A stretch of 64,000 nucleotides of DNA from IMG/VR virus record IMGVR_UViG_3300047548_001122, positions 124,001 through 188,000 of that record. One strand, written 5' to 3'. Under the pieces are notes generated by a model that saw nothing but the letters and a program-made list of their open reading frames with translations, did not search any database and was not told where the DNA came from. This document shows, one piece after another, positions 5,435 to 38,093 of this stretch. How positions within the stretch are numbered: the first letter of the stretch is position 1; each line of letters begins with the position of its first letter. Position numbers and translations under genes: made by a program. Source of the DNA: a virus.

Positions 5435-6085
5435 ATGAAATTAATTAGAGAAGCCGTAGAAAATGTAAAGTACATCAGTGAAGCCACAGAAAATGGCAAG
5501 AAAAAACTTTACATTGAAGGTACATTTTTAGTTGGTAATGCTGTTAATAAAAATAACAGAATGTATATGATGGATACTCTCCGTAATGAAGTCGAAAGAT
5601 ATAATCAAGACTTTATATCTCAAAATAGAGCTCTAGGAGAATTAGGCCATCCAGATACACCAACAATAAACTTAGAGAGAGTTAGTCATAAGATCGTTTC
5701 TCTTGTAGAAGATGGCAATACTTTTTATGGTAAAGCTTTGATCTTAGATACTCCTTACGGACAAATAGTAAAAAACTTTATTGAAAACGATGTTACTTGT
5801 GGTGTTTCTTCGAGAGCTTTAGGTTCATTAGTTCAAACCAAAGAAGGTTACAATTTGGTTCAAGATGATCTTAGACTTGCAACGGCAGCTGATATTGTTG
5901 CAGACCCTTCTGCGCCAGGTGCTTTCGTCAACGGTATTATGGAAAATAAAGAGTGGATGTTTGTTGATGGAAAGTTCATGGAAAAACAATTTGATGAAGC
6001 CAAAAAACAGATAAAACAAGCCTCAAGAAAAGATATCGAAAAAGTTGCATTAAAACTATTTGAAAATTATATTAGAAAACTTTAA
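5435..6085 (+). CDS. 21: Prohead core protease gp21
   Basis: The 216-residue product matches the T4 gp21 serine protease family. GELGHPDTP places the catalytic histidine at residue 72 and CGVSSRALG the catalytic serine at 125 or 126; YIEGTFLVGNAVNKNNRMY is the conserved N-terminal strand region. The enzyme is assembled into the prohead core, activates itself and cleaves scaffold, capsid and internal proteins after (L/I)-x-E. Its own N-terminus contains ISE before A at residues 14-16, a fitting self-cleavage site. It precedes gp22 and gp23 as in T4. Its presence and the LTE site in gp23 are the basis for the polyprotein interpretation elsewhere in the window. Confidence 0.95.
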   Translation: MKLIREAVENVKYISEATENGKKKLYIEGTFLVGNAVNKNNRMYMMDTLRNEVERYNQDFISQNRALGELGHPDTPTINLERVSHKIVSLVEDGNTFYGKALILDTPYGQIVKNFIENDVTCGVSSRALGSLVQTKEGYNLVQDDLRLATAADIVADPSAPGAFVNGIMENKEWMFVDGKFMEKQFDEAKKQIKQASRKDIEKVALKLFENYIRKL

Positions 6086-7213: not shown

Positions 7214-8554
7214 ATGTATTTAACGGAAGACCTACAAAAGAAATGGGAAGCAGTGTTGGATCACCCAGCTCTACCTGCTATTAAAGACCCATATCGTAAA
7301 GCAGTTACCGCTCTTGTTCTTGAGAACCAAGCACAAGAAATGGTAAAAGCTGGCGGCAACGTACAGCAGCTTACAGAAGCAACACCAACTAACGCAGCTG
7401 GTACAGGTGGTTTCGGTGGCGCCGCTACTGCAACTGGTCCTGTTGCTGGTTTCGACCCAATCCTAATCAGTTTGGTTCGTCGTTCATTACCTAACCTTAT
7501 TGCTTATGATATCTGCGGCGTTCAGCCAATGACTGGTCCTACTGGACTTATCTTCGCAATGAGAACTATGTATGGTACTAACCGTGTTCCAGGTTCTGGC
7601 ACTGAAGCTTTCTACAACGAAGCAAACAGCGCATGGACTGGTACAGGTTCACACGATGCTATTTCTCTTGCTGCTAATACAGCATTAGGTAATGGTAACG
7701 TATTTACAAGCGGTATGGCAACTGGTTCTGCTCTTGCAACAGCTTCTGCTGAAGATTTAACTTTTAACGAAATGGGTTTCTCAATCGAGAAAGTATCTGT
7801 TACTGCTAAGACCCGTGCTCTAAAAGCAGAATACACAATGGAATTAGCACAAGACTTGAAAGCAGTTCATGGTCTTGACGCTGAAACCGAATTAGCAAAT
7901 ATTCTTTCAACAGAAATTCTTGCTGAAATCAACCGTGAAGTTGTTCGTACAGTTTACGCAACTGCTAAGGTTGGCGCTCAAGTTGGTACAACTACTGCTG
8001 GTACTTTTGACCTTGACACCGATTCTAACGGTCGTTGGATGGTTGAAAAGATCAAAGGTCTTGCTTTCCAAGTTGAACGTGAAGCTAACACCATTGCTAA
8101 GACAACTCGTCGTGGCAAAGGTAACATCATGATCTGCTCATCAGATGTTGCTTCAGCTCTTGCAATGGCTGGTATTCTTGACTACAACTCAGCTCTACAA
8201 GGTCAAGTTAATCTAACCGTTGACGATACTGGTAATACTTACGCAGGTACTATCTTCGGTCGTATCAAAGTTTACATCGATCCATATTTCCCAACCGGCG
8301 CAACTTCTGAGTTTGCAGTTGTTGGTTATAAGGGTGCTAACGCTTATGACGCAGGTCTATTCTACTGCCCATACGTTCCTCTACAAATGGTTCGTGCTGT
8401 TGACACTGGTAACTTCCAGCCAAAGATTGGCTTCAAGACTCGTTACGGTCTAGTTGCTAACCCATTCGCTGAAGGTGCTACACAAGGTTCTGGTGCTCTA
8501 ACTGCTAAGACTAACTTGTACTATCGTGCATTTAAGATAGCGAATCTAATGTGA
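7214..8554 (+). CDS. 23: Major capsid protein gp23
   Basis: This 446-residue protein is the HK97-fold major capsid protein of T4-like phages. Diagnostic segments include GFDPILISLVRRSLPNLIAY, DICGVQPMTGPTGLIFAMR, GMATGSALATASAEDLTFNE and AFKIANLM near the end. QQLTE before A56 is the probable gp21 cleavage site that removes the N-terminal delta domain during head maturation (T4 is cut at a similar place). The codon choice here is richer in C-ending and G-ending codons than in neighbouring genes, as expected for a very highly expressed gene. A strong terminator follows. Confidence 0.98.
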   Translation: MYLTEDLQKKWEAVLDHPALPAIKDPYRKAVTALVLENQAQEMVKAGGNVQQLTEATPTNAAGTGGFGGAATATGPVAGFDPILISLVRRSLPNLIAYDICGVQPMTGPTGLIFAMRTMYGTNRVPGSGTEAFYNEANSAWTGTGSHDAISLAANTALGNGNVFTSGMATGSALATASAEDLTFNEMGFSIEKVSVTAKTRALKAEYTMELAQDLKAVHGLDAETELANILSTEILAEINREVVRTVYATAKVGAQVGTTTAGTFDLDTDSNGRWMVEKIKGLAFQVEREANTIAKTTRRGKGNIMICSSDVASALAMAGILDYNSALQGQVNLTVDDTGNTYAGTIFGRIKVYIDPYFPTGATSEFAVVGYKGANAYDAGLFYCPYVPLQMVRAVDTGNFQPKIGFKTRYGLVANPFAEGATQGSGALTAKTNLYYRAFKIANLM

Positions 8555-8663: not shown

Positions 8664-9251
8664 ATGATAACTCTATACATAAAAACTCACAAAAAGACAG
8701 GTCTTAAATATTTTGGAAAAACTACAAAAAAAGACCCACACAAATATACTGGATCAGGTAAATACTGGTTAAGACATTTAAAAACTCATGGTAATGATGT
8801 TTATACCGAAATAGTAGGAACATTTGAAAGTTTAAAAGAATGTACAGAATTTGCAATAAATTTTTCTAGACTACACAATATAGTCGAATCTACTGAATGG
8901 GCAAATCTTAGAATGGAAAATGGAACTGACGGTGCTCCTGTAGGAAATTGTTTTTCTACTGAAACAATTAAAAAAATGAGTGAATCTAAAAAAGGAAAAA
9001 GACCTAGAGAATATTATGTAGAGATTGCTAAGAAAAATGTTGGAAGAAAACAAACAGATTATCAAAAACAAAGAGCAAGAGAAACTATGGAGTCAGCGTG
9101 GGTTGTCACTTCACCAAATGGTGTATCGATGAACATTGTTAATTTAACTAAATTTTGTCGTGAAAATAATTTAGATCAAGGAAATATGGTCAAAGTATCT
9201 AAAGGAATAATAAAAAAACACAAAGGATGGACTTGTTATAAAGTCTCCTAA
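8664..9251 (+). CDS. Putative GIY-YIG-type homing endonuclease
   Basis: The 195-residue product has YIKTHKKTGLKYFGKTT, which fits the GIY-YIG-like core of phage freestanding homing endonucleases, then YTGSGKYWLRHLKTHGN and ESTEWANL. A NUMOD3-like stretch (SESKKGKRP, near residue 110) and a C-terminal repeat (SPNGVSMNIVNLTKFCREN, GNMVKVSKGIIKKHKGW) typical of intron-encoded nuclease DNA-binding modules follow. It is inserted between gp23 and gp3. It is a paralogue of the gene at 1291 but keeps the YFG motif, so it is more likely active. Such enzymes cut a cognate site in relatives lacking the gene, so their own gene is copied in. Confidence 0.75.
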   Translation: MITLYIKTHKKTGLKYFGKTTKKDPHKYTGSGKYWLRHLKTHGNDVYTEIVGTFESLKECTEFAINFSRLHNIVESTEWANLRMENGTDGAPVGNCFSTETIKKMSESKKGKRPREYYVEIAKKNVGRKQTDYQKQRARETMESAWVVTSPNGVSMNIVNLTKFCRENNLDQGNMVKVSKGIIKKHKGWTCYKVS

Positions 9252-16920: not shown

Positions 16921-17505
16921 ATGAGTGAAATTTTAACACTTGATACTTCCGAAGGCATAACCAAATTTAAGGAAGAAAAACCTCAACTATTAGTTGTATA
17001 TTCTGATAAGCATCCAATGTTGAATGAAGTGATGCCTGAATATACTGAACCTCTACCAAATAAAGATATGTATGATTTGGTAAAGAATATGAAAGAAACC
17101 ATGAAGATTTATGGTGGTGTAGGACTTTCAGCTAATCAGTGTGGCATAAGAAAAAGAGTTTTTGTTATGGGTACAGATCAATTTCAAATTGCATGTATCA
17201 ATCCTAAAGTCTTAGAGGTGTCTGAAGAAAAAGAAAAACAAATAGAAGGATGTTTGTCTTTCCCTGCAATGTTTATGAAAGTCGAAAGACCAAAATCAGT
17301 TTTTGCTGAATATACTGATGAGAATGGAGAAGTTCATAGAGAATGGTTTCAAGGATTAACTGCACGTTGTTTTTTACATGAAACCGATCACATGAATGGA
17401 ATAAAATATACAAAATATGTTGGTCCAGTGGCCATTCGTATGGCTCAACAAAAACAGTTGAAAAAAATTAAAACTGTTAAAAGAAGAATGAAAAATGGCG
17501 TATAG
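16921..17505 (+). CDS. def: Peptide deformylase
   Basis: All three deformylase motifs are present: GGVGLSANQ (65-73), EGCLSFP (109-115, Cys ligand) and HETDH (153-157, the metal-binding HExxH). The enzyme removes the formyl group from the N-terminal methionine of new proteins. Virus-encoded deformylases are common in T4-like aquatic phages, where they are thought to keep host or phage protein turnover going. At 194 residues it is slightly longer than bacterial enzymes, with a K/R-rich tail. It overlaps the next gene by 11 bases. Confidence 0.93.
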   Translation: MSEILTLDTSEGITKFKEEKPQLLVVYSDKHPMLNEVMPEYTEPLPNKDMYDLVKNMKETMKIYGGVGLSANQCGIRKRVFVMGTDQFQIACINPKVLEVSEEKEKQIEGCLSFPAMFMKVERPKSVFAEYTDENGEVHREWFQGLTARCFLHETDHMNGIKYTKYVGPVAIRMAQQKQLKKIKTVKRRMKNGV

Positions 17506-18772
17506 TTTTGATCCTAAAGATGATGTTGAAACTCAGTGGCAAAAGTGGCAAGACTCGGGTATTGAATATCAAAATATAGATGTCGATCAGTTACGTGAGA
17601 AAACCATAAAAGAACTTACGTATGTGTCTGGCATGGATGTTAAAGAATACACACTGTTTCAAAAGTGGTGTGAGGTTCAAGAAAAATATCCTACGATGTT
17701 GGTCAACGACCTATGGGAAGGCGAAAAGAAAGTTCTCATAGATGATGAACAAAGAAGGTCGATTGAAGAGATTAAAAATAATTTTTGGGTACCTAGTACA
17801 CCTGAAGATTATCTAAACTTACAACCAGAATTAATTTACACAAATAAAGAAGATAATCTACCAGAGTTATGGAACACTATACGAACATTTTCTTCCACAA
17901 TGAAGAACAACTCGAATATTGGACGTAATTTAAACTTTATTGTTCGTGACAAAGTAACTAAAAAATATCTTGGTGTTATCTGCATTAGTTCCGACTTCTT
18001 AGATTTGACACCAAGAGATAACTTTATTGGCTGGTCCAGAGAATTAAAAACTCAAGGTGGTATGATTAATCATACAGCTATAGGATCAACAATCGTTCCT
18101 TTACAACCTTTGGGTTATAATTATGTGGGTGGCAAATTACTTGCTCTATTGTGTTTGTCTGATCCTGTACAACAGTTATGGGAAAAACTTTACGGAGATA
18201 AATTAGTATCTGTAACTACTACATCATTATATGGTAAAACAAAAGCCGGTGGATTATCACAATACGATAATTTGGATCATTGGTTGCCGATGGGTTTTAC
18301 TTCTGGCTCTGTTTCATTTGAACCTTTGACCGATACTAGATACATGATACGTGAATGGTTGAAAACAAATCATACCAGAAAATATTTTGAGTGGTATGTT
18401 GCAAAGAAACCTTCTGGACAACCACATAAAAGAGATCATAAAAATCGATCTTTAAATTTTACATACACACAGTTAAGCATACCAAAAGAATTGATTCGTT
18501 CTGAACATGCAAGAGGAATTTATTTTTCACCGTTATATGATAAGTCTTGTGAATTTTTACGTGGTGACCATGACGGTAAAAATATGAATAAGTTATTTGA
18601 CACCAGTGTTGAATCGTTGGTTGATATCTGGAAAACTAAACACGCTAAACCGAGAATCAAACAATTGGTAAAAAAAGATAAAGTATCTTATGATACCTTG
18701 TTCTATGATGATTTGTGCTACTTAACTTGGGAAGAAACAAAAGAAAAATACCTTCCACAAGTTGGTCGGTAA
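17495..18772 (+). CDS. DUF4338-like (DruA-related) protein, copy A
   Basis: This 425-residue protein has a central region (about 140-285) with LGVICISSDFLDLTPRDNFI, then AIGSTIVPLQPLGYNYVGGK, TTTSLYGKTKAGGLSQYDN and HWLPMGFTSG. A second copy of the same core is encoded at 36978. The order of elements resembles DUF4338, the domain of DruA from the Druantia defence system, but I could not align them by computation. The N-terminal 120 residues are helical and charged. Function is unknown. It ends the recombination operon and is followed by a long regulatory gap. Confidence 0.5.
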   Translation: MAYSFDPKDDVETQWQKWQDSGIEYQNIDVDQLREKTIKELTYVSGMDVKEYTLFQKWCEVQEKYPTMLVNDLWEGEKKVLIDDEQRRSIEEIKNNFWVPSTPEDYLNLQPELIYTNKEDNLPELWNTIRTFSSTMKNNSNIGRNLNFIVRDKVTKKYLGVICISSDFLDLTPRDNFIGWSRELKTQGGMINHTAIGSTIVPLQPLGYNYVGGKLLALLCLSDPVQQLWEKLYGDKLVSVTTTSLYGKTKAGGLSQYDNLDHWLPMGFTSGSVSFEPLTDTRYMIREWLKTNHTRKYFEWYVAKKPSGQPHKRDHKNRSLNFTYTQLSIPKELIRSEHARGIYFSPLYDKSCEFLRGDHDGKNMNKLFDTSVESLVDIWKTKHAKPRIKQLVKKDKVSYDTLFYDDLCYLTWEETKEKYLPQVGR

Positions 18773-18787
18773 TAATAAAAAAGATGC

Positions 18788-18816
18788 TTGACAATTGAAG
18801 AAAGTTCCTATATAAT
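18788..18816 (+). promoter_or_regulatory. Consensus sigma70-type promoter for the tRNA-like RNA
   Basis: TTGACA (18788-18793), a 17-base spacer and TATAAT (18811-18816). The expected transcription start (about 18823-18829) coincides with the 5' end of the folded RNA described next, so this promoter seems to serve that RNA directly. Confidence 0.85.
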
Positions 18817-18828
18817 TGTATCTGAAAT

Positions 18829-18891
18829 GCGGAGAGTCCGAGACAACCTGCCCCCGCAGGTAGAGAGGTTTAACTCCTCTTATCCGCTCCA
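18829..18891 (+). ncRNA. Structured tRNA-like small RNA with encoded CCA
   Basis: The 63 bases fold by eye into a compact cloverleaf. The acceptor-like stem is GCGGA (18829-18833) with TCCGC (18883-18887), followed by T and CCA. A 5-bp T-arm-like hairpin (AGAGG / CCTCT, 18864-18880) has the 7-base loop TTTAACT, close to the tRNA T-loop consensus, with the usual spacing to the acceptor. A 6-bp hairpin ACCTGC-CCCC-GCAGGT (18846-18861) replaces the anticodon arm, and a 3-bp hairpin (GTC/GAC) stands for the D arm. There is no 7-base anticodon loop, so it cannot decode. It is about 13 bases shorter than a normal tRNA. Function is unknown; a decayed tRNA is the main alternative. Confidence 0.6.
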
Positions 18892-18934
18892 CCCACGTTA
18901 TCAAATTAGCAACAGTTGTTAAAAAGACAACGGC

Positions 18935-18963
18935 TTGACTTTTCCTTTTTCCTGTGTTATAAT
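18935..18963 (+). promoter_or_regulatory. Sigma70-type promoter for the cobT-like gene
   Basis: TTGACT, 17 bases, TATAAT. It is preceded by GTTGT-N7-ACAAC (18915-18931) and shares GGCTTGACTTTT and TGTGTTATAAT with the promoter before the cobS-like gene, pointing to common control of the pair. Confidence 0.85.
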
Positions 18964-18991: not shown

Positions 18992-21256
18992 ATGACAACT
19001 TTTACCGCAGAGACTAAATCGCAATTGGCAAAACTCCTTGCCACCGAAAACTTGCGAATTGAACACCAAAAGATTCGTACAGCCCGATTCGATCCAAAGA
19101 ATCGGGTTTTATATTGTCCTATTTGGAAAAATATGTCAGGAGCTCTTTATGATCTTTTGATGGGTCATGAAGTAGGTCACGCTTTGTACACTCCTGCTCA
19201 AGGTTGGCATGATGCGGTTTGCGAAAAGGGTAAAAACTATAAAGCATTTTTGAATGTTATTGAAGATGCTCGAATCGAAAAGAAAATCAAACGGAAATAT
19301 CCTGGTATTCGCAGGTCTTTTGTTACTGCCTATAATGAATTGATGGAAAGAAATTTCTTTGAGATTAAAGGTAAAGACATCAATAAAATGTCCTTCATTA
19401 ATCGATTGAACCTTTTCACAAAATCTTCTGGAACTATTGATATTTCTTTTACTGGTTTTGAAGAAAAACTTGTAGAAGAAGTTATGCGTTGTGAAACTTG
19501 GGATGATGTAATTCGTGTCACTGGTCTTGTTTGGGATTATTCCAAAGATGAACAGTTCGAAATGATGCAAGATTTTGATTTCGATAATTTGGAATTCGAT
19601 GAGGATGGTGAATACGAATTCGAATATGAATTGGAAGAATCTGAAGAAGGTTTCGATTCTGATGATTCGAAGAAAAATGGAAAATCATCTACTCAATCTG
19701 AAGAAAATGGTGAAGAAGGTGAGGGTTCGGGAAATTCTAATAAATTCGACACCGAATCAAATGAAGAGAGTGAAGGAGAAAGTGAATCTTTTTCGATAGT
19801 TCGTAATAAAGAATCTGCTTTAACTAACAAAGATATGTTTCAACCATTCTGTGAAACTGATGATGCGTTTCGTATGAATGAAAATACTCTGCTTGATGAA
19901 AAATGTAAAGAGTATATCTATCTTACTTTGCCTACTCCTGTTTTGAAAAATATTATTACGCCAGCTTCTCGCGTACAAAAACTTTTGGCCGATCATTACT
20001 CTAATCATTTTAACAGAAATGAATTGTTCAATAATTTCAAACGAAAAAATGAACGATACATTTCTTTGCTTGCCAAAGAATTCGAAATGAAGAAGGCGGC
20101 TTCTTGTTACGCAAAAGCTAAAACTTCAAATACAGGAGATATTGACGTATCGAAATTGTACAAATACAAAATTGATGATTCTATTTTCAAAAAGATGATG
20201 AGAATACCAAAAGGTAAATCTCACGGTTTGATTTTGCTTTTGGATAAATCAGGTTCAATGTCAAACAATATGAAAGGTTCTATTGAACAAATTCTAGTTT
20301 TGGCTATGTTCTGTAGAAAAGTAAATATTCCTTTTTCAGTTTACGGATTTGGGAATAATTCTACCGGTTATTGTATCGATAAGGAAGTTGATAACCTCGG
20401 TCGTGATGAAGAGTTTTTCAAACACAAAATTGGTGATGTTTATATGAATGCTGTATTCCTTAGAGAGTACATTAATTCTAGAATGAGTAATGTTGAATTC
20501 AACAATGCTTTGAAAAATATGGTTTGTTTGATGAATGGATTCTCACATAGGTATGGTAGAGATTATCCTCCTGTCGAATGTTTGTCGAATACACCTTTGA
20601 CTGAAGCTATTGTTGCTACCGAAGCAATCACTCAAGAATTTAGAAAAGTAAATAATCTTGATATTGTAAATCTGGTGATTGTACACGATGGTGATGCAGA
20701 TAGCATTTCTCATTATAATACTGGTCGAGATGAAGAAGGATATTCTTTGACTGGAAGATTTTCAACAAGTTATTTTAATGTTCTACTTCGTGACAATAAG
20801 ATTCATTTTGAAGATAAGTTGGAACACGATAGTTTAAATTCTGCTGTTTTGAAATGGTATAAACAAAAAACTGGTGCAAATGTTTTTGGTTTTTTTGTAA
20901 CCGATGATAATGCCAGTAGCATGAACGGTGCTATTTGTAAAAATTTCTACACTGAAAATGAAACTAAAAACTTCTATGATAGAATTGAAAATTATCATGA
21001 AAGAAAAGAAGCTGCAACAGTTCTAGTCAAAAAACTTAAAAAAGAAAAGTTTCTATTGTCGAAAAAACCAGGGTTTAAAAGCTTTTTCATTGTACCTGGG
21101 GGTAGCAATTTGCAGATTGATGATGGCGAACTTGAAATTGATGATACCAAAAAAATTACGGCAACAAAATTGACTAATGCCTTTTTGAAGTATAATAAAA
21201 AACGGCAAGTTAACCGTATTTTGGTTTCCAAATTTATTGACGGTATTGCAGTTTGA
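18992..21256 (+). CDS. cobT: CobT-like protein: HExxH metallopeptidase-like region plus vWFA domain
   Basis: The 754-residue protein has a zinc-binding motif H59-E-V-G-H63 (in MGHEVGHALYTP), an acidic D/E/S-rich middle (about 190-265), and a C-terminal von Willebrand A domain with the MIDAS motif DKSGSMSNN. This acidic-linker-plus-vWFA layout is that of CobT-type partners of MoxR/CobS AAA+ ATPases, and the ATPase gene is next. Despite the name, phage copies need not act in cobalamin synthesis; a metal-dependent chaperone or remodelling role is equally possible. It has its own strong promoter. Confidence 0.75.
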   Translation: MTTFTAETKSQLAKLLATENLRIEHQKIRTARFDPKNRVLYCPIWKNMSGALYDLLMGHEVGHALYTPAQGWHDAVCEKGKNYKAFLNVIEDARIEKKIKRKYPGIRRSFVTAYNELMERNFFEIKGKDINKMSFINRLNLFTKSSGTIDISFTGFEEKLVEEVMRCETWDDVIRVTGLVWDYSKDEQFEMMQDFDFDNLEFDEDGEYEFEYELEESEEGFDSDDSKKNGKSSTQSEENGEEGEGSGNSNKFDTESNEESEGESESFSIVRNKESALTNKDMFQPFCETDDAFRMNENTLLDEKCKEYIYLTLPTPVLKNIITPASRVQKLLADHYSNHFNRNELFNNFKRKNERYISLLAKEFEMKKAASCYAKAKTSNTGDIDVSKLYKYKIDDSIFKKMMRIPKGKSHGLILLLDKSGSMSNNMKGSIEQILVLAMFCRKVNIPFSVYGFGNNSTGYCIDKEVDNLGRDEEFFKHKIGDVYMNAVFLREYINSRMSNVEFNNALKNMVCLMNGFSHRYGRDYPPVECLSNTPLTEAIVATEAITQEFRKVNNLDIVNLVIVHDGDADSISHYNTGRDEEGYSLTGRFSTSYFNVLLRDNKIHFEDKLEHDSLNSAVLKWYKQKTGANVFGFFVTDDNASSMNGAICKNFYTENETKNFYDRIENYHERKEAATVLVKKLKKEKFLLSKKPGFKSFFIVPGGSNLQIDDGELEIDDTKKITATKLTNAFLKYNKKRQVNRILVSKFIDGIAV

Positions 21257-24916: not shown

Positions 24917-25849
24917 ATGGAACAAGTATTGTGGACGGAACGGTATCGCCCAAACACGGTCGAGGATTGTATTCTCCCCGACCGTTTAAAAAAACCATTT
25001 CAAGAATACGTCAATCAGAAAACTATTCCGAACCTACTATTGAGTGGTGGAGCAGGAGTAGGCAAAACGACCGTAGCCAAAGCAATGTGCAAAGAGATCG
25101 GTTGCGACTACATGATAATCAATGGTTCTGATGAATCGGGTATTGATACATTTAGAACGAAGATAAAACATTATGCCTCAGCAATGTCTTTTGCTGGCGG
25201 CAGAAAAGTTATTATCATTGATGAAGCCGATTATCTAAACCCAAACTCAACCCAACCAGCATTGCGAAATGCTATCGAAGAGTTTGCTGGTAATTGTTCG
25301 TTCATTTTTACATGTAATTACAAAACTCGCATTATAGAACCACTACACAGTCGTTGTGCTGTGATTGATTTTGGTTTGAAGAATGGTGAGAAGGTAAAAC
25401 TCGCTTCTCTTTTTCATAAGAGAATTGAGTCGATTTTGCAAAGTGAAAAAGTTGAGTTTGATAAGTCAGTTGTTGCCGAATTAATCAAAAAACACTTTCC
25501 AGATTTTCGTCGTGTTATAAATGAACTGCAACGTTATTCACAGTTTGGTAAAATCGATACTGGTATTCTTGCACAGATCGGTGATGTTTCAACTAAAGAG
25601 TTGGTGAAACATATATCCTCCAAAGATTTCGGCGCGATTCGTAAATGGGTTGCGACCACAGAAATTGATGGTAATACATTGTTCAGAAAAATCTATGATG
25701 CAATGTATGATGTTTTGAAACCTACGTCGATACCTAAAGCAGTTCTAATTTTGGCTGACTATCAATACAAACAAGCATTCGTTGCAGATCAGGAAATTAA
25801 TATGGTCGCTTGTTTAACTGAATTGATGGTCGAATGTGAGTTTGCATGA
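24917..25849 (+). CDS. 44: Clamp loader large subunit gp44
   Basis: The 310-residue AAA+ ATPase has WTERYRPNTVEDCILPD, Walker A SGGAGVGKTT, Walker B VIIIDEAD and the SRC motif (PLHSRCAVI), all conserved in T4 gp44 and RFC subunits. Four copies with one gp62 load the gp45 clamp. Its length is normal (T4: 319). The stop overlaps the start of a small membrane protein gene, so gp62 is not adjacent as it is in T4. Confidence 0.95.
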   Translation: MEQVLWTERYRPNTVEDCILPDRLKKPFQEYVNQKTIPNLLLSGGAGVGKTTVAKAMCKEIGCDYMIINGSDESGIDTFRTKIKHYASAMSFAGGRKVIIIDEADYLNPNSTQPALRNAIEEFAGNCSFIFTCNYKTRIIEPLHSRCAVIDFGLKNGEKVKLASLFHKRIESILQSEKVEFDKSVVAELIKKHFPDFRRVINELQRYSQFGKIDTGILAQIGDVSTKELVKHISSKDFGAIRKWVATTEIDGNTLFRKIYDAMYDVLKPTSIPKAVLILADYQYKQAFVADQEINMVACLTELMVECEFA

Positions 25850-35621: not shown

Positions 35622-36981
35622 AGAGTATACCCGTAAAGTATTTCCTTTCATAAAACACGAATATTTTTCAGATAACGTACACAAAAAATTCTTCAATGAA
35701 GTAAAACGTTTTATTGAAGAATATAAAACTCCTCCTACCTACGAATCACTACTCATCGATTTTACCGAATCTAAAAGATTAACACAAACCGAAGTGAACG
35801 GTTGTGTTGATTTGTTGCGTGAACTAAATTCAAATAAGAATGAAAGTTCCGAAATGGAATGGCTGATTGACCAAACAGAAAAGTTTTGTCAAGATAAAGC
35901 AATCTATAATGCAATCATGAATTCGGTCAGTATTCTTGACCAAAGTGGTGAAGATAAGAAATCTAAAGGTGAGATACCTAAACTTCTCAGTGATGCATTG
36001 GCCGTATCTTTTGATAATCATATTGGTCATGATTATGTAAATGATTTTGATGCACGGTATGATTTCTATCACAAACAAGAAACGCGGATTCAATTTGACC
36101 TTGATATCTTTAATAGGATTACCAAAGGTGGTCTTCCAATTAAAACTCTGAATATCGCACTTGCTGGCACAGGCGTTGGTAAATCTTTGTTCATGTGTCA
36201 CGTTGCCGCATCTTGTATATCACAAGGTAAAAATGTTTTGTATATTACACTTGAGATGGCCGAAGAAAAGATTGCAGAACGTATAGATGCTAATCTTTTG
36301 AATGTAGACTTGAATGAGTTATATACTTTGACTAAAGATGATTATGGTCGAAAGTTTAATCACCTGAAAACCAAACTCAATGGTAAATTAATCATCAAAG
36401 AATATCCGACTGCATCGGCATCAACACTTCATTTCAGAGCTTTGTTGAATGAATTGCAATTGAAGAAGAATTTTAAACCTGATATTGTGTTTATCGATTA
36501 TCTGAATATTTGTTCATCATCTCGTATTAAACCTGGTGCGAACGTGAATAGTTATTCTTATATCAAAGCAATTGCAGAAGAACTTCGTGGTCTTGCAGTT
36601 GAATTTGCTGTGCCTGTTGTTTCTGCTACACAGACAACTAGAAGTGGTTTTACAAATACTGATCCTGGTCTAGAAGATACTTCAGAATCTTTTGGTCTGC
36701 CAGCAACAGCAGACTTTATGTTTGCTTTGATTAGTACTGAAGAACTTGAACAGTTGAATCAGATTATGGTGAAACAGTTGAAGAATCGTTACGGTGATCC
36801 AAATCATTTCAAACGATTCGTTGTAGGTATTGATAGAGCTAAGATGAAATTGTATGATGCTGAACCTGATGCACAGAATGATATTTCAGATTCAGGTCAA
36901 CCAAATGATACACCTCCATTAAATACATTTGGTAATCGTGAGAGTAAATTTAACAAAAACTTTGGCGGAATTAAAGTATGA
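35575..36981 (+). CDS. 41: Replicative DNA helicase gp41 (DnaB-like)
   Basis: The 468-residue protein matches gp41 (T4: 475) with an N-terminal helical domain and a RecA-like ATPase: Walker A LAGTGVGKSLF, LYITLEMAEEKIAER, Walker B PDIVFIDYLNI, and VPVVSATQTTRSGF. It unwinds DNA at the fork and activates the primase. The start is TTG, with the N-terminus MKQLETVILKNLIFNEEY; the next gene overlaps by four bases. The Walker A lacks the second G/T pattern of bacterial DnaB, as in T4. Confidence 0.93.
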   Translation: MKQLETVILKNLIFNEEYTRKVFPFIKHEYFSDNVHKKFFNEVKRFIEEYKTPPTYESLLIDFTESKRLTQTEVNGCVDLLRELNSNKNESSEMEWLIDQTEKFCQDKAIYNAIMNSVSILDQSGEDKKSKGEIPKLLSDALAVSFDNHIGHDYVNDFDARYDFYHKQETRIQFDLDIFNRITKGGLPIKTLNIALAGTGVGKSLFMCHVAASCISQGKNVLYITLEMAEEKIAERIDANLLNVDLNELYTLTKDDYGRKFNHLKTKLNGKLIIKEYPTASASTLHFRALLNELQLKKNFKPDIVFIDYLNICSSSRIKPGANVNSYSYIKAIAEELRGLAVEFAVPVVSATQTTRSGFTNTDPGLEDTSESFGLPATADFMFALISTEELEQLNQIMVKQLKNRYGDPNHFKRFVVGIDRAKMKLYDAEPDAQNDISDSGQPNDTPPLNTFGNRESKFNKNFGGIKV

Positions 36982-38093
36982 GTTTGAATAAAGATCAAGC
37001 AATTTATTGTGCGAATGTATTCTCAAACTATTTCGATAGATTCGAAAGAATAGATGAATACATGCGTGAACAAAAGTTGTCATCTATGTCAGAGAGGTCA
37101 CCAACACTTTTTGGTATGGGACCTGAAGATGATTTGTTTTCAGACTTCACGGTTTCACCAGAAAAAATGAACTTTGAAGTTGTCGAACTTTCGCAAGAAA
37201 AGTGGGACATTTATTTGAATATGATTTCTTCTCATTCAAACATGACAAGTATTCCTGGTCGCTGCTTGAGATTGGCTGTACTAGAAACTACAACCAATAA
37301 ATGGTGTGGTTTTATTAGACTAGGTTCGCCAGTAATTAATTGTAAACCTAGAAATGAAATGTTGGGTCAAGTGTTCACTCAAACTGAAGGTGGCGCACAG
37401 TTATTTAATCGATGCGCTATCATGGGTTTTGTTATTGTACCTGCACAGCCATTTGGTTATAATTACCTTGGTGGTAAATTGATGGCTGCGATTTGTACTA
37501 CACATGAAGTACGTGAAATGTTGAACAAGAAATATAACATGACAACTTGTTTGTTTGAAACAACCAGTTTATACGGTTCAACTAAGGCTGTATCACAATA
37601 TGATGGCATGAAACCTTATATTCGATACAAAGGTTTGACAGATAGTGATTTTCTTCCTATGTTACATGGTAAAACATACACCGATCTAAAAGAATATATG
37701 GAAGAAATTATTGGTGAACCACTCGCACCAGAAGGTGCTTCTAGTCGTAAACTAAAGATATCAAATGCCATGGTGTCACATATCAATACTGCTTTGAAGG
37801 GTACACCAGAAGGTGCCAAGTTTAAAAAGACCATAGAAAATGCAAAGAATCTGAACGAACAAAAGCGTTACTATGTTTCAGATTATGGGTTTAGTAACAT
37901 GGTTGACTTTGTTAATGGAAAAACAACTAAACTGATTGCTGGTGAAAACTATGAAAAGTTTCATTTGAAAAACATAATTGAGTGGTGGAGAAAGAAAGCC
38001 ATTAACAGATTTGAAACGTTAAAGACTGAGAATAGACTTAGGACAGAGATCGAAGTCTGGACAGGCGAAAAAGAGATTGACATTATTCGGTAG
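36978..38093 (+). CDS. DUF4338-like (DruA-related) protein, copy B
   Basis: The 371-residue protein shares its core with the protein at 17495: GFIRLGSPVINCKPRNEMLG, then GFVIVPAQPFGYNYLGGKLM, TTSLYGSTKAVSQYDGMK and a following LPML segment. The two copies are clearly homologous but diverged, especially in N- and C-terminal parts. Both lie at the ends of replication/recombination operons. The order of elements recalls DUF4338/DruA. No catalytic residue can be assigned with confidence, and the function is unknown. Confidence 0.5.
   Translation: MSLNKDQAIYCANVFSNYFDRFERIDEYMREQKLSSMSERSPTLFGMGPEDDLFSDFTVSPEKMNFEVVELSQEKWDIYLNMISSHSNMTSIPGRCLRLAVLETTTNKWCGFIRLGSPVINCKPRNEMLGQVFTQTEGGAQLFNRCAIMGFVIVPAQPFGYNYLGGKLMAAICTTHEVREMLNKKYNMTTCLFETTSLYGSTKAVSQYDGMKPYIRYKGLTDSDFLPMLHGKTYTDLKEYMEEIIGEPLAPEGASSRKLKISNAMVSHINTALKGTPEGAKFKKTIENAKNLNEQKRYYVSDYGFSNMVDFVNGKTTKLIAGENYEKFHLKNIIEWWRKKAINRFETLKTENRLRTEIEVWTGEKEIDIIR

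Follow-up and report, generated by a model that had tools for sequence, protein, structure and literature searches.

tRNA-Gly-like small RNAs that accompany a DruA-family gene in T4-like phages suggest a private glycine supply for chemical modification

The closest described counterparts of the phage RNA reported here are the non-proteinogenic tRNA-Gly species of Staphylococcus aureus, which keep the full cloverleaf and the anticodon loop; the Fem enzymes have a GNAT fold. Mom of phage Mu (PF25680), whose product is an adenine bearing a glycine-derived group, is a second point of comparison. The staphylococcal tRNAs are glycine acceptors outside translation: they lack G18G19, contain the T-stem pairs A49-U65 and A51-U63, avoid EF-Tu and are used by the transferases FemXAB (PMC4052509). 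The third comparison is with DruA (PF14236, DUF4338) of the Druantia defence system. DUF4338 has been termed a GNAT domain (PMC10853773), and according to a 2026 review Druantia marks DNA by modification (PMC12904381). The literature searched yielded no RNA partner for DruA and, with few preprints and subscription papers covered, no tRNA-dependent phage DNA modification, DruA-tRNA link or non-canonical phage tRNA-Gly.

We analysed a window of 64,000 nucleotides (positions 124,001 to 188,000) of the 214 kb virus record IMGVR_UViG_3300047548_001122, which is related to the T4-like Pelagibacter phages HTVC008M and Mosig. All features of the window described below lie on the plus strand. Between a DruA/DUF4338 gene (17495-18772) and a cobT-like peptidase gene (18992-21256) a tRNA-Gly-like RNA of 63 nt including CCA was identified by its fold, its relatives and covariation. 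This RNA differs from the S. aureus tRNA-Gly in its length, in its 4-nt loop, in being encoded by a phage and in standing beside a DruA-family gene. The phage locus also differs from Druantia, since its gene is flanked by peptide deformylase and cobT-like peptidase genes and is not part of a Druantia operon; a Druantia defence system was considered and rejected, the other Dru genes being absent from the neighbourhood.

A sigma70-type promoter of the small RNA (TTGACA-17-TATAAT, 18788-18816) matches the consensus in 12 of 12 positions, as an earlier, sequence-only reading of this stretch had stated, and a -10-like box directly 5' of the RNA is found in most relatives. Four promoter-like sites were observed in the 400-nt region, compared with 0.7 expected. 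The promoter scan also placed a promoter of the downstream peptidase gene at 18935-18963, and the small RNA is a separate unit with one promoter on either side. The earlier reading had described 18788-18931 as a promoter-driven tRNA-like RNA with an acceptor-like stem formed by the first bases of the transcript. The RNA is real, but it occupies 18829-18891. The stem and the CCA do exist, but the stem does not begin the transcript, because the -10 box ends at 18816 and transcription would therefore start approx. 5-7 nt before G1.

The window RNA folds as a shortened tRNA and cannot read codons. The 5' strand of the acceptor stem (GCGGAGA, 18829-18835) provides identity pairs of the G1-C72, C2-G71 and G3-C70 type; its GCGGA (18829-18833) pairs with TCCGC (18883-18887). 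The 3' strand UAUCCGC, the discriminator U (18888) and the encoded CCA (18889-18891) together cover 18881-18891. The stem has seven positions; position 6 is a G-A mismatch in the window RNA, whereas some relatives form 7 bp. Folding and alignment both gave a mini D-hairpin (GUC-CGA-GAC, 18836-18844) of 3 bp with a CGA loop and no G18G19, which is invariant across the relatives and hence without covarying changes. It is followed by a shortened 'anticodon' hairpin (18846-18861) of 6 bp, supported by alignment and covariation, with CCCC (18852-18855) as loop. The T arm (18864-18880) consists of a 5-bp stem with pairs of the A49-U65 and A51-U63 type and the loop UUUAACU (18869-18875), and it abuts the acceptor stem with no spacer, as in tRNA. 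The folding energy corresponds to z = -3.3, and none of 200 shuffles folded equally well.

ARAGORN reported 0 genes for this RNA; Rfam gave no family either at the gathering threshold or at E<=10, and no match to tRNA (RF00005) even at E 10. Canonical phage tRNA-Gly(UCC), in contrast, is a full cloverleaf capable of decoding. The window RNA shares with elongator tRNAs the 7-position acceptor stem stacked on a 5-bp T stem, the 7-nt T loop and the CCA, and lacks a 7-nt anticodon loop with U33. The T arm, its TTTAACT loop and its tRNA spacing, as well as the inability to read codons, had been recognized correctly from the letters. The GC hairpin with its CCCC loop had been recognized too, but taken for an arbitrary replacement of the anticodon arm, while its loop keeps the CC of the glycine anticodon. 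Overlooked were the D-type hairpin, the tRNA-Gly identity of the acceptor and the DruA-family gene directly upstream.

A related RNA was present at the same site in most of the best 80 IMG/VR relatives of the upstream gene. In 42 distinct 63-mers of this kind (type 1), 92% of the cells were paired, compared with 34-53% when the structure was slid, 11 of the 21 pairs showed double changes, and the covariation score was reached by none of 500 shuffles. Unprompted, RNAalifold produced this structure too, except for one pair of the hairpin and the two innermost positions of the acceptor. The T stem was paired in all of 49 type-1 RNAs, while in the acceptor six positions were paired in 28 and all seven in 5. 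The hairpin loop varied from 4 to 7 nt (CCCC, CCCA, CACCA, CACCCA, CUUCCCA; the 7-nt form among these relatives only in L068), and CC was kept. Since the covariation is strong in 42 distinct relatives, the window RNA is a real, conserved functional RNA and not a decaying tRNA. Simple decay had been doubted already on account of the promoter; relatives with an intact tRNA gene differing by a deletion, together with stems that do not covary, had been named as the opposite outcome. The intact tRNA-Gly(UCC) in the slot of L067 does not differ from the window RNA by a simple deletion, and the stems do covary. The proposal that CTCCTCT could pair with ribosome-binding sites was abandoned, because this strand belongs to the conserved, covarying T stem.

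At least four structurally distinct types of unusual tRNA-Gly-like RNA occur in T4-like phages, and the window RNA represents one of them. The same slot holds type 2, with a reduced D arm and the loop UGUCCAA, in L069, L070 and L072-L074, and type 3, with a loop like UACCC, in L054, L056, L062 and L082; a true tRNA-Gly(UCC) occupies it in L067 and G040. The slot contains no RNA in Mosig and HTVC008M, which have one 74-nt RNA elsewhere (the HTVC type); its anticodon loop, UUACCAA, is that of glycine, and its D and T loops are non-canonical. RNAs of the HTVC type still score as weak tRNAs (35.8 bits). Every type is abundant in IMG/VR; within its own consensus each reached 98.7-99.2% paired cells and 9-13 doubly changed pairs, the structures having been derived from the same alignments. 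In L512 a type-3 RNA adjoins an ordinary tRNA-Gly, which fits a division of labour between the two. An unusual tRNA-Gly with anticodon ACC was noted at 8998-9071 in HTVC008M (L002) and at 7779-7852 on the minus strand of the Mosig record, where it is unannotated; the T loops of these tRNAs are AGCGTTA and GGCAGTA. A further 67-nt tRNA-Gly-like type, with the loop UGCCC, lies near canonical tRNA-Gly genes in G043 (25747-25813) and G047 (5672-5738).

The types have in common G1-C72, C2-G71, G3-C70, U73, the CCA and a CC in the 'anticodon' loop. In E. coli the determinants for glycyl-tRNA synthetase (GlyRS) are U73, acceptor pairs 1-3, C35 and C36, the effect being 105- to 1500-fold for C35 and 21- to 41-fold for C36, and the enzyme also charges acceptor-T minihelices (PMC9908026). 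Judged by sequence, these elements are all found in the phage RNAs, with C35 and C36 placed by position in the shortened loop. Across the four types, 194 of 197 distinct RNAs had CC in the loop, the search pattern for type 2 having demanded it. Parts of the acceptor end were prescribed in the patterns used to find types 2, 3 and HTVC, so that conservation of identity there is partly built in. The unbiased support thus comes from the set found by synteny, in which GCG...CGC-U-CCA and a loop containing CC are retained without exception in the RNAs behind the gene, and from types 1, 3 and HTVC, whose loop CC the patterns had not asked for. A49-U65 was present in 37 and A51-U63 in 43 of the 49 type-1 RNAs, and the D loop is without GG; the window RNA itself carries, in its primary sequence, the features of weak EF-Tu binding (A49-U65, A51-U63, no G18G19) known from S. 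aureus.

The protein encoded directly upstream (paralog 1, 425 aa) scored above the Pfam cut-off for PF14236 (E 2.6e-19, 69.9 bits vs. 27) and matched the DruA of PADLOC. Its AlphaFold2 model had a pLDDT of 84.5, and the top Foldseek matches in the PDB were nearly all GNAT proteins, weak ones (best E 0.023), including the tRNA-acetylating toxins TacT, AtaT2 and GmvT; the predicted GNAT fold draws on this weak signal and on the published naming of the domain (PMC10853773). A PDB sequence search with the DruA-family protein gave nothing useful and an NCBIfam search gave no match. A second DruA/DUF4338 gene of the window (paralog 2, 36978-38093; 38.9 bits, over the same Pfam cut-off) lies in the replication module directly behind a gp41-type helicase gene, and no RNA was seen beside it in this window. 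Paralog 1 is located downstream of gp46/47-type genes; the gp46/47 and gp41 names were given from the sequences by eye and by synteny with annotated relatives. Many related large records carry two DUF4338 paralogs, and in cyanophages the DUF4338 homologues are located between gp44 and gp62.

The phage protein resembles Mu Mom in being a phage enzyme of predicted GNAT type. Homology to Mom was rejected: the hhalign probability was 0.2%, and Pfam gave no Mom match for either paralog. The Mu record has no RNA feature annotated beside mom. A cyanophage DUF4338 homologue is annotated 'methylcarbamoylase mom', and since homology with Mu Mom was rejected, this annotation was not used as evidence.

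In order to assess the linkage, the type-1 RNAs were located by a scan blind to proteins. The DruA-family gene was directly upstream in 78 of the 78 loci where the contig reaches, the two remaining loci being contig edges; gene and RNA were within 300 nt of each other in 71 loci and were separated by insertions of 500-800 nt in 7. Opposite-strand ORFs are inserted between gene and RNA in L009 (4264-4728) and L036 (4262-4708), and that of L009 resembles, by eye, a GIY-YIG homing endonuclease with NUMOD-like repeats. Much of the 78/78 count is shared synteny among related phages, and therefore the relocations weigh more. Where RNAs of types 2, 3 and HTVC lie away from the gene, the gene was still encoded in 16 of 17 and 15 of 15 records, mostly as two paralogs, and the sole exception is an 18-kb fragment. 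HTVC-type RNAs are found 61-77 nt behind paralog 2 in L304, L338, L368 and L389, at a distance from cobT/cobS in those that were checked, and in some relatives a tRNA-Gly or a tRNA-Gly-like RNA stands beside paralog 2. In a sample selected solely by gp43, the DNA polymerase, a non-canonical RNA or a slot tRNA-Gly was present in 3 of the 4 records that encode paralog 1 and in 0 of the 9 that lack it, which are small numbers; the exception, G051, is a 29-kb fragment having paralog 1 and no such RNA.

In approx. 690 loci, Gly(UCC) was the only canonical tRNA seen at a distance of up to 600 nt from a DUF4338 gene, against a background in which Gly makes up 139 of about 890 tRNAs. Such a tRNA-Gly(UCC) precedes a DUF4338 gene by 14 nt in L688. 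The gene tree of 120 rows requires no fewer than 15 switches of RNA type in the slot, one of them to a genuine tRNA-Gly. On this tree L067 was scored as 'none', the pattern for canonical tRNA-Gly having been too strict, although a tRNA-Gly(UCC) sits 27 nt past its gene. L048 and L582 encode almost the same protein but differ in RNA type. The repeated exchange of types and the relocations thus indicate that selection appears to act on a glycine-acceptor RNA and not on one particular sequence. Distant cyanophage DUF4338 homologues had no adjoining tRNA-Gly-like RNA and were mostly in records without such an RNA, one of which has a canonical tRNA-Gly elsewhere. Among the homologues in bacterial bins L688 alone showed a tRNA-Gly (locus L688:3635-4840), and this contig is itself from a T4-like phage; it was assigned to an archaeal (thaumarchaeon) bin, possibly a binning artefact.

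Such RNAs accompany one enzyme gene in hundreds of related phages, which suggests a private supply of glycine for chemical modification. We consider it probable that the RNA is a dedicated non-ribosomal glycyl donor that is charged by GlyRS and serves the DruA-family enzyme, the most likely target being phage DNA. The small RNA would be made from its own promoter, and its 5' end would be trimmed. The host glycyl-tRNA synthetase would charge it by way of the acceptor pairs, U73 and the CC of the hairpin loop, while the weak T stem and the missing elbow motifs would keep the non-decoding RNA from EF-Tu. The DruA/DUF4338 enzyme, with its predicted GNAT fold, would take the glycyl-RNA as donor in a manner comparable to transferases of the FemXAB type and would move the glycyl group to its target. 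The bases of phage DNA are the favoured target because the DruA-family genes sit in replication and repair modules. Speaking against this reading are the weakness of the GNAT signal, the lack of homology to Mu Mom, the cyanophages whose distant DUF4338 homologues mostly have no such RNA, the fragment G051, the share of synteny in the linkage, and the acceptor ends prescribed in part by the search patterns. A stricter version, that glycyl-tRNA mimics only feed DNA glycylation by the DruA family (approx. +57 Da per modified base expected) and that the DruA of bacterial Druantia may work alike, is offered tentatively and as somewhat doubtful.

The mimicry of tRNA proposed from the letters is partly borne out, and its purely sequestering form is possible. 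Many phages carry tRNAs against tRNA-cleaving defences, and the RNA could be a decoy that ties up GlyRS, RNase P, EF-Tu or a tRNA-attacking defence enzyme, such as an anticodon nuclease or a Gly-tRNA-acetylating toxin, with no glycine donated. The preservation of recognition features after loss of decoding would suit a decoy, as would the frequent exchange of RNA types, reminiscent of an arms race. The gene linkage is explained less well: the RNA accompanies DUF4338 genes in three different positions, and all tested records with such RNAs, except the 18-kb fragment, encode the gene. We therefore regard the decoy as unlikely.

The tight linkage, along with the weak fold matches to TacT, AtaT2 and GmvT, would also agree with a GNAT enzyme that acetylates or otherwise modifies the glycyl-RNA itself, the RNA being a regulator or a protective substrate as in a toxin-antidote pair. 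No toxin-like features were seen, however, the RNA has its own promoter and the genes are placed in modules of DNA replication and repair, so this is quite improbable. An RNA unrelated to charging (a regulatory sRNA, a replication primer or a packaging signal) that borrows a tRNA body for stability or processing would be in accord with the separate promoter and the lack of an Rfam family, but four divergent structures have only the glycine identity elements and the CCA in common, and we give it little chance. A decaying tRNA-Gly gene, or a quirky elongator kept for codon usage, is hardly credible in spite of the intact tRNA-Gly(UCC) that L067 and G040 have at this site and of the weak tRNA score of the HTVC type, since a 4-nt-loop hairpin unable to decode covaries strongly, the RNA is conserved in more than 100 loci, L512 has a canonical tRNA-Gly besides type 3, and the types are repeatedly replaced by equally odd ones.

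If the glycyl-donor reading is right, these RNAs form a large class of phage small RNAs that has not been listed until now and whose biochemical role can be tested, and tRNA-dependent chemistry beyond translation reaches phage biology, plausibly as DNA modification. They would also provide a lead on the substrate of the DruA/DUF4338 family, a part of the Druantia defence system. Since the RNAs are present in isolated phages of a cultured host (the Pelagibacter phages HTVC008M and Mosig), the idea is directly testable. The BFVD contains two giant-virus proteins structurally like the DUF4338 protein, A0A3G4ZXG3 of Faunusvirus (E 1.7e-17) and A0A5K0UAJ3 of Yasminevirus (E 8e-14).
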